Positions 13,488 through 16,582 of a stretch of 55,020 nt of DNA are shown piece by piece; the stretch's first letter is position 1, and each line of letters opens with the position of its first letter. Under the pieces are notes generated by a model. The model was not told the DNA's origin. It ran no database searches and was given only the letters and a program-made list of their open reading frames with translations. Position numbers and translations under genes: made by a program. Source of the stretch: Flavobacteriales bacterium (GTDB lineage Bacteria > Bacteroidota > Bacteroidia > Flavobacteriales > BACL11); NCBI GenBank assembly GCA_028122735.1, contig JAOHSR010000005.1, positions 1 through 55,020 of the forward strand, read 5' to 3'.

Positions 13488-15020
13488 CTATTTATTTACA
13501 ATGCTGTATTGTAATAAATGTAGCCTGTCATCTCCGACAACTTTTATAGTTTTCTTAAACTTATTTTCCCATTTGTGTCTAATTGAAGAAAAGAACCATC
13601 CTTTATTAATATAGCTTGCTACAAAAGGATGTGTTGCTATTTGAATTTTGTTTGATTTAATAACTGTTAGATTAGCAATTTTATTTTCAATTTGATCAAT
13701 TAGTAATAAGCTGGAGTCTATTTTTCCTCCACCATCACACATTGGACATTTTTCTAAAGTATCAATTGTAAGAGCAGGTCTAACTCTTTGTCTAGTTATT
13801 TGTATTAATCCAAATTTTGTTGGAGGTAAGATGTTGTGTTTAGCCTTATCAGTACTCATGGCTTTTTTCAGGCTTTCGAAAAGAAGTTTTCTGTTTTTTT
13901 CAAATTTCTGATCAATAAAATCAACAACAATAATCCCCCCCATATCTCTTAATCTTAATTGGCGAGCAATTTCTTTAGCTGCTTCAATGTTAACTTCTAA
14001 AGCATTTTCTTCTTGATTTTTTTTAGCATCAACTTTTTTTCCGCTATTAACGTCTATAACATGCAACGCTTCTGTATGTTCTATAACAAGATATGTTCCG
14101 TTTTTAATTGTTACGTTTTTACCAAATGCACCTTTTATCTGCTTGGTAATATTATATTTTTGAAAAATTGGTGTTTCTCCTTTGTGGATTTTCACGATTT
14201 TTTCTTGTTCTGGTGATATTCTTGCTAGGTAGTCTTTTAATTCTTGAGCAATTTCAGTGTTATTGACAATAATGTTATTGAATTTTGCATCTAGCAAATC
14301 TCTAAGAATTGTAGAAGATCTATTAAGTTCTCCTAATATTTTTACAGGGGCTTTTGATCCTTTTAGTTTTTTGCTAATAACTTGCCATTTTTTATAAAGA
14401 TTCTTCAGATCTTGATCTAATTCAGCTACTTTTTTACCTGTAGCTACAGTTCTAATAATAACACCAAAACCAGGCGGCTTTATACTTCTTATAAGTTTTT
14501 TAAGACGTGCCTTTTCCTCAGATTTAGCAATCTTTTGTGAAACAGAGACTTTGTCAGAAAATGGTGTTAGAACCATATATCGTCCAGCTAGTGATAATTC
14601 TGTTGTAAGTCTAGGTCCTTTAGTTGAAATTGGTTCCTTCGAAATTTGAAGTAAAAGATGATCGCCAGATTTTATTGTGTCAACAATCTTTCCATCTTTG
14701 TCAATGTTCTTTTCGCTTTTGAAGTTTTTTAGTGAGGCAGTATTGAGTTTGTTTTGAATTGCTTTTTCAGTAAACTTTTTAAGAGAATTTACTTGGCTTC
14801 CTAAATCTAAGTAGTGAAGAAACCCATCACGTTCATATCCAACATTTACGAATGCCGCATTTAAACCTGGGACAACTTTTTTTATTTTCCCTAAATATAT
14901 ATCGCCTACTGAAAAGTTATTATCGTGTTTTTGTTTATGTAACTCAATTAACTGCCCATCACATAACAATGCAATTACTACTTCAGAAGACCTTGAATCG
15001 ATTATGAGGTCGAATTTCAT
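13488..15020 (-). CDS. rng: Ribonuclease E/G family endoribonuclease
   Basis: A 510-residue RNase G-type enzyme for rRNA and mRNA processing. The N-terminus holds the S1-like domain (GDIYLGKIKKVVPGLNAAFV, then GYERDGFLHY). The catalytic core carries HVIDVNSGK and GGIIVVDFIDQ, whose aspartates bind Mg. Near residue 420 is the zinc-link CPMCDGGGK. Without the long C-terminal scaffold of RNase E it is the short G form usual in Bacteroidota. It is the last gene of the leftward unit hup - 29-aa basic protein - rng, 40 bases after the small gene. Confidence 0.94.
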   Translation of the reverse strand: MKFDLIIDSRSSEVVIALLCDGQLIELHKQKHDNNFSVGDIYLGKIKKVVPGLNAAFVNVGYERDGFLHYLDLGSQVNSLKKFTEKAIQNKLNTASLKNFKSEKNIDKDGKIVDTIKSGDHLLLQISKEPISTKGPRLTTELSLAGRYMVLTPFSDKVSVSQKIAKSEEKARLKKLIRSIKPPGFGVIIRTVATGKKVAELDQDLKNLYKKWQVISKKLKGSKAPVKILGELNRSSTILRDLLDAKFNNIIVNNTEIAQELKDYLARISPEQEKIVKIHKGETPIFQKYNITKQIKGAFGKNVTIKNGTYLVIEHTEALHVIDVNSGKKVDAKKNQEENALEVNIEAAKEIARQLRLRDMGGIIVVDFIDQKFEKNRKLLFESLKKAMSTDKAKHNILPPTKFGLIQITRQRVRPALTIDTLEKCPMCDGGGKIDSSLLLIDQIENKIANLTVIKSNKIQIATHPFVASYINKGWFFSSIRHKWENKFKKTIKVVGDDRLHLLQYSIVNK

Positions 15021-15060: not shown

Positions 15061-15150
15061 TTATTTGTTTTTGTGTCTATTTTTTCTAGAGCGCTTTTTG
15101 CGCTTGTGTGTAGCAATTTTTAATCTTTTCTTTTTCTTCGCTCCTGACAT
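15061..15150 (-). CDS. 29-residue, highly basic small protein
   Basis: The frame runs ATG to TAA on the minus strand, MSGAKKKKRLKIATHKRKKR plus nine more basic residues. Sixteen of 29 residues are Lys or Arg. I recall near-identical ~30-residue proteins (GKKRKRHK...ATHKRKKR...NRHK) in the same place, between HU and RNase G, in many Bacteroidota, usually annotated as hypothetical. The composition resembles tiny ribosomal proteins such as THX, so binding to rRNA or DNA is likely, but that is inference. It follows hup by 20 bases. Two CGC codons, rare here, pair in the mRNA to form a hairpin (15090-15104). Confidence 0.85.
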   Translation of the reverse strand: MSGAKKKKRLKIATHKRKKRSRKNRHKNK

Positions 15151-15170: not shown

Positions 15171-15455
15171 TTATTTTACTTTATTTTTTACGTCCTGCAC
15201 AAAAATCTTCGCAGGTTTGAATGAAGGGATATGGTGCTCTGGAATAATAATAGTCGTATTTTTCTTTATGTTACGACCAGTTTTTTTAGCTCTTTTTTTT
15301 GCCTTGAATGTTCCAAATCCTCTTAAAAATACAGCTTCGTTTTCAGAAACAGCACTCATAATTTCACTCATAAATGACTCTACTACAGCAAGTGTTGTTA
15401 CTTTTTCTACTCCTGTTTTTGATGATATCTTACTAACAACTTCTGCCTTTGTCAT
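15171..15455 (-). CDS. hup: HU family DNA-binding protein
   Basis: A 94-residue HU/IHF protein that bends and packages DNA. MTKAEVVSKISSKTGVEK begins the helical body, FLRGFGTFKAKKRAKKTGRN is the signature at the base of the DNA-binding arms, and IPEHHIPSFKPAK ends the arm, with Pro at the kink position as in HU/IHF. It heads the leftward unit that continues with the 29-residue basic gene and rng, and has a TATATTTG element 25 bases upstream of the ATG. Confidence 0.95.
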   Translation of the reverse strand: MTKAEVVSKISSKTGVEKVTTLAVVESFMSEIMSAVSENEAVFLRGFGTFKAKKRAKKTGRNIKKNTTIIIPEHHIPSFKPAKIFVQDVKNKVK

Positions 15456-15541: not shown

Positions 15542-16582
15542 ATGAATTTTTCTAATCAATTAATTACTTGGTATAATATTAACAGTAGGGACCTTCCTTG
15601 GAGACAAACTAATGATCCATATAAGATTTGGTTGTCTGAAATAATATTGCAACAAACTAAAGTACAGCAAGGATTACCATACTTTAATAATTTTATATGC
15701 GAATTTCCTACGATCTTTGATTTGGCTAACTCTAGTGAAGATAAAGTTTTAAAGCTTTGGCAGGGATTGGGTTACTATTCTAGAGCTCGAAATCTACATT
15801 ACACCGCTAAATACATTTGCTTTAGCTGTAACGGAAATTTCCCCCAGAATTATAAGGATATTTTAAACCTAAAAGGCGTAGGAGAGTATACTGCATCAGC
15901 AATTTCTTCTTTTGCCTTTAATAAAAATTATGCTGTTTTAGATGGTAATGTTATTAGAGTTTTAAGTAGAGTTTTTGGTATATACAATTATTTTGATACC
16001 TCCTCAGGTAAAAAGCAATTCAAAAAACTTGCTGATTTTAATTTGCCATTAAAAGATAGTTATACTTATAACCAAGCCATAATGGAATTTGGAGCTTTAG
16101 TTTGTACACCAAAAACACCCAAATGTATTAACTGTATTTTTCAAGACGAATGTTATGCGTTTAACAATTCAAAAGTTCAAATTTTACCTAAAAAACAAAA
16201 TAAAATTAAAGTTAAGAATAGATATTTAAATTTTTTAATTGTCTCAATTGGAGATCATGTTCTTCTAAAGAAAAAAAATAAAGGTATTTGGTCTGGTTTA
16301 TATGAATTTCCGTCATTAGAATTTAAAAAAGATATTTCAAAAAATAATGTTGTTGAAAGTAGTCAGTGGACTAATTTTTTTTATAGAAATAATTTTCAAA
16401 TTAATAATATTTCTCCCATTATTGTACATAAATTATCTCATCAGAAATTACATATTAGGTTTATTCATATTAAGAGTGATAAAGTAAAGCCTAATACATA
16501 CCAACTCTTTAAAAAAGATCAATTATTACAACTTCCAGTATCTAAGGCTATTGAGAACTATCTTAGTCAATCATTTATTTGA
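15542..16582 (+). CDS. mutY: A/G-specific adenine DNA glycosylase
   Basis: A 346-residue base-excision enzyme that removes adenine mispaired with 8-oxoguanine. LSEIILQQTKVQQ holds the catalytic Glu region, LKGVGEYTASAISSFAF is the helix-hairpin-helix, and LDGNVIRVLSRVF carries the catalytic Asp. Four cysteines at residues 188, 195, 198 and 204 have the C-x6-C-x2-C-x5-C spacing of the [4Fe-4S] cluster. The C-terminal ~110 residues are the NUDIX-like domain that senses the opposite base. It starts the conserved flavobacterial run mutY-ssb-gldE-gldD. Confidence 0.96.
   Translation: MNFSNQLITWYNINSRDLPWRQTNDPYKIWLSEIILQQTKVQQGLPYFNNFICEFPTIFDLANSSEDKVLKLWQGLGYYSRARNLHYTAKYICFSCNGNFPQNYKDILNLKGVGEYTASAISSFAFNKNYAVLDGNVIRVLSRVFGIYNYFDTSSGKKQFKKLADFNLPLKDSYTYNQAIMEFGALVCTPKTPKCINCIFQDECYAFNNSKVQILPKKQNKIKVKNRYLNFLIVSIGDHVLLKKKNKGIWSGLYEFPSLEFKKDISKNNVVESSQWTNFFYRNNFQINNISPIIVHKLSHQKLHIRFIHIKSDKVKPNTYQLFKKDQLLQLPVSKAIENYLSQSFI

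Follow-up and report, generated by a model that had tools for sequence, protein, structure and literature searches.

A 29-residue basic peptide encoded between HU and RNase E/G-family genes in a Flavobacteriales bacterium is very probably ribosomal protein bS22

According to published structures, actinobacterial bS22, mitochondrial mS38/COX24/AURKAIP1 and eukaryotic eL41 are basic helices that occupy the same ribosomal pocket. Published bS22 members are 55-65% positively charged, and the protein of Cutibacterium acnes lies between helices h27, h44 and h45, where its contact with H67 forms a new intersubunit bridge (PMC10085706). Mycobacterial bS22 is likewise found near the decoding centre (PMC6133939). 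In Borrelia burgdorferi, bS22, which consists of 61% Lys/Arg, sits in a pocket of 16S rRNA helices h2, h27, h44 and h45 and touches helix H68 of 23S rRNA, and its gene carries no insertion in a transposon library; the same paper assigns the bS22 of Flavobacterium johnsoniae to the pocket of the small subunit and describes bS22 and bL38 as different proteins (PMC10618245). Yeast mitochondria that have lost the counterpart, mS38, translate less and have an altered decoding centre (PMC6582356). Neither S22 nor bL38 occurs as a name in PMC9976891.

The gene and its match to bS22

Within the window, that is, the whole 55,020-nt stretch of DNA that was analyzed, we focused on a short ORF on the minus strand (15061..15150). 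Read from 15150 to 15061, it starts with ATG, ends with TAA and encodes the peptide MSGAKKKKRLKIATHKRKKRSRKNRHKNK. With 29 residues, of which 16 are Lys/Arg (18 counting His), this peptide falls within the length and charge of bS22 (about 28-33 residues, over half Lys/Arg), and among the 548 ORFs in the window that reach 20 aa, it alone has a Lys/Arg share of 40% or more. Upstream, in the same direction and separated by a 20-nt gap, lies the gene for a 94-aa HU/IHF-family DNA-binding protein (15171..15455, minus strand; Pfam PF00216 Bac_DNA_binding, 6.9e-25). Downstream, also in the same direction but after a 40-nt gap, is a gene encoding a 510-aa RNase E/G-family enzyme (13488..15020, minus strand), which matches Pfam PF10150 RNase_E_G (3.5e-99) and NCBIfam TIGR00757 (Rne/Rng) above cut-off, and scores below the cut-off of the NCBIfam ribonuclease G equivalog model. 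The earlier note had described a 29-residue basic peptide between HU and RNase G with 16 Lys/Arg, and this is indeed a real ORF in that position. Judging from spacing and direction, the three genes would form one operon. A divergent mutY-type gene, adenine glycosylase-like (15542..16582, plus strand; Pfam HhH-GPD, 2.8e-17, and NUDIX_4, 4.9e-13), lies outside this group and serves as a context marker.

At position -3 relative to the start codon of the peptide gene is an A, a base favored there in the phylum. Sigma-70-like sites are about as frequent as in shuffled sequence (13 versus a mean of 10.1, sd 3.3), and no terminator-like site was found between 13400 and 15700, a result that says little since shuffles average only 0.6. 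Across the window, neither Rfam nor a tRNA search gave a hit. The genome to which the window belongs, which is 58.7% complete, has one copy of the gene.

When the peptide was searched as a single sequence against the PDB (E up to 10), three distinct sequences were matched, and its alignment with bS22 chains from ribosome structures covered almost all of its residues. The best match was 7jil_5 (E 3.3e-5, improving to 4.9e-14 with an 18-row profile), chain 5 of PDB entry 7JIL, which we take to be the Flavobacterium johnsoniae ribosome. It was followed by 9i5v_10 (3.6e-4 and 6.5e-12) and by 8fmw_V, labeled "bS22" (0.0041 and 1.6e-10). Identity in the aligned stretch is 19/26 for both 7jil_5 and 9i5v_10, and the alignment scores of 103, 101 and 88 for 7jil_5, 9i5v_10 and 8fmw_V exceed the maxima of 72, 71 and 67 reached by 5,000 shuffles each. 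The 7JIL chain is one residue longer (30 versus 29 aa) and the alignment spans profile positions 1-29; the window peptide begins with MSGAKKKK rather than MPSGKKRK, and has Asn rather than Lys beside the last Lys. Borrelia burgdorferi bS22 (8FMW chain V), although from another phylum and with a reported GUG start (PMC10618245), shares the stretches THKRKK and RKNRHK and is identical at 16/23 positions.

The names attached to these chains differ. 7jil_5 is labeled "30S ribosomal protein S22 | 50S ribosomal protein L38", a double label that becomes clearer since PMC10618245 separates bS22 from bL38, while 9i5v_10 is named "AURKAIP1/COX24 domain-containing protein," so that some annotators do name this form. 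The 18-row profile matched no actinobacterial bS22 and no mitochondrial mS38 chain in the PDB (E up to 1), and the link to these proteins therefore rests on published structures. A phage search with the peptide gave no match, which is of little weight because the tool filters low-complexity queries. Comparison with known chains thus makes it almost certain that the product of the gene is bS22, a structural protein of 29 residues in the small ribosomal subunit. This protein is already known, and the find is ordinary in kind.

Conservation of the reading frame

An ORF this short, in an AT-rich stretch and without a Pfam or NCBIfam match, could be a lysine-rich accident of intergenic DNA. We compared the window gene with 27 related loci (L002-L028), whatever peptide each encodes, leaving aside one locus from another family of the order (L029) and one whose peptide is one residue shorter (L030). 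DNA differences from the window gene amount to 277, 37 and 29 at codon positions 3, 1 and 2, respectively, and the summed amino-acid differences are 39, as against a mean of 215 and a minimum of 198 in 500 random placements of the same base changes; the 27 comparisons depend on one another, and the set leans toward conserved copies, since its loci were picked by protein match. Among L001-L030, the identical peptide is encoded in 12 of the 30 loci by twelve different DNA sequences; in these loci the changes number 90, 10 and 0 at codon positions 3, 1 and 2, all of them silent by construction.

Conservation extends beyond close relatives. Selecting 18 members out of the 59 loci and aligning them gave 14 invariant columns out of 29. 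Best tblastn bit scores over the 59 loci range from 45.1 to 61.6, and 100 composition-matched shuffles reach at most 26.9 anywhere, a control that, as the loci were selected by matching, excludes composition alone as the source of the scores and nothing more. The frame of the bS22 ORF is conserved, and it is under selection as a protein. In view of the shuffle controls, the invariant columns, the codon comparison and the finding of the peptide in 377 of the 395 genomes sampled across the phylum (see below), we reject a chance ORF, the probability of which we regard as negligible.

Gene order and distribution in the phylum

The tblastn search and synteny comparison that the earlier note had proposed showed the peptide to be conserved among relatives, not the lack of conservation that the note had named as contrary evidence. 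Gene order was compared in 59 loci, with gaps taken from the ends of tblastn matches and hence approximate. The best-scoring 30 of the matches (L001-L030) comprise the window's own genome, 28 of the same family and one of the same order. Here, RNase G is downstream in 30/30 (about 17-40 nt), HU lies upstream in the same direction in 29/30 (about 3-40 nt; the exception is L029) and the mutY-type gene is divergent in 28/30. In the exceptional locus, from a genome of 0.3 Mb (G051), bS22 is kept next to RNase G, HU and mutY are undetected, and a divergent ORF, CBS-type by eye, is found on the upstream side. Five more loci of the order (L031, L034, L035, L036 and L039) all have both HU and RNase G, the latter at about 138-218 nt.

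Further away, this arrangement loosens. In 12 loci from other parts of the class (L037, L038, L040-L043, L046, L049, L050, L053, L054 and L059), RNase G is always downstream (12/12, about 68-348 nt), and HU, detected in 11/12, lies about 0.87-1.2 kb upstream; L038 and L040, the two that were read by ORF, have an extra ORF in between that is tetratricopeptide-like by eye. In 12 loci outside the class (L032, L033, L044, L045, L047, L048, L051, L052 and L055-L058), neither HU nor RNase G was detected at a significant E-value within about 1.5 kb (0/12 for each). Four of these loci were read by ORF (L032, L033, L044 and L052); by eye, the neighbors there are YtxH-like and YaaA-like, and three of the four loci also have an ORF resembling an alpha/beta-hydrolase. 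The suggestion that the peptide occupies the same place in other Bacteroidota is thus borne out within the order (RNase G in 35/35 loci, HU in 34/35), partly so in the rest of the class, and fails outside it.

These comparisons also bear on what the peptide does, since it had been proposed to be ribosome- or nucleoid-associated. A nucleoid-associated peptide working with HU would fit the neighboring gene, which is just upstream in 29 of the 30 best-scoring loci, and the very basic composition. However, HU adjoins bS22 in 34/35 loci of the order and in 0/24 outside it, where the peptide persists all the same, which is not the pattern of a lasting link with a nucleoid gene, and the sequence matches ribosomal chains. 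No result supports the nucleoid half of the proposal, which we reject on the strength of the ribosomal match and of the loss of adjacency outside the order; we judge it extremely improbable. The ribosomal half stands, by virtue of the matches to bS22 in the PDB.

bS22 is common in the phylum, but not universal. As a single sequence, the peptide matches 55 of 60 relatives; of the five misses, four are assemblies 61-76% complete and the fifth is a 97% complete assembly in which the profile match is cut by a contig end. In a sample of 395 genomes of the phylum, the single sequence matches 376 and the profile 377, the latter including 357 of the 370 good-quality genomes. The 18 genomes without a profile match comprise seven of f50, four of genus g118 of f38, six of f32 and one of f43, those from f32 and f43 being assemblies of 230-520 contigs. 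A second search of the 24 single-sequence misses (19 from the phylum sample and five relatives), now with the profile and E up to 10, left 22 without a match; the other two matched partially, over positions 1-14, in one case right where a contig ends. Genus g118, with eight members sampled, is split, four genomes lacking a profile match (G282, G329, G341 and G403) and four having one (G137, G206, G305 and G419); a recent loss or divergence is possible in the non-matching half.

A clear absence concerns f50, where the misses are all seven sampled genomes of the family, each 98-99% complete (G202, G250, G254, G364, G383, G399 and G443). In all seven, we found the corresponding locus (L066-L072), with YaaA-like, YtxH-like and hydrolase-like genes arranged as in L052, in which bS22 is present. 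None of these loci has an ORF of 20-60 aa with at least 38% Lys/Arg, and the L052 peptide, searched against them by tblastn, retrieved just one 10-residue fragment in one locus (E 0.32). At E up to 10, the profile found nothing in the seven genomes. Pfam model PF08213 gave a single 13-position match in one of them (E 1.07, below cut-off), but this model also fails where bS22 is present. Together, these searches point to a loss of bS22 in f50, or to divergence past recognition plus a move.

Proposed role and significance

By analogy with the solved ribosomes, the 29-residue protein would form a bent basic helix in the pocket of 16S rRNA made by h2, h27, h44 and h45, near the decoding centre, and would touch 23S rRNA at H67/H68, adding an intersubunit bridge. 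There, it may neutralize rRNA charge, hold the top of h44 and steady the 70S ribosome. Expressed from one transcript, HU, bS22 and the RNase E/G-family enzyme would keep pace with growth and with the maturation of ribosomes. More speculatively, a class-wide bS22-RNase G operon might set 16S rRNA maturation and the filling of the h44/h45 pocket together, with at least one whole family having dropped bS22 cleanly; we offer this combined proposal tentatively and consider it unlikely as it stands.

bS22 could also act away from the ribosome, for instance as an antibacterial peptide once it is released, which would add to its ribosomal role rather than replace it. Such activity has a precedent in C. 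acnes bS22, which inhibits growth in disk tests as well as cell-free translation (PMC10085706). However, the published tests concern the C. acnes peptide acting on other species, and by eye there is no hint of export in the 29 residues or in the two neighboring genes. We view this added role as very unlikely here.

For bS22, there is a gap in annotation. Pfam scans of the 18 bS22 members, the window peptide and 17 others, matched no family, and NCBIfam likewise gave none for the window peptide and, across the 18 members, one chance-level match for one member (E 9.4). The Pfam model for the mitochondrial counterpart, COX24_C (PF08213; mS38/AURKAIP1), reaches its cut-off in 0/15 genomes, four of which, from genus g118, do have a bS22 profile match, and passes it in 1 of 14 named control genomes. 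The models tried thus miss a bS22 that is common in the phylum, with the consequence that gene counts and ribosome inventories can omit it, and pipelines that use these models can leave a blank between HU and RNase G. As for family f50, if it does lack bS22, it would let the role of this protein be tested by comparison.
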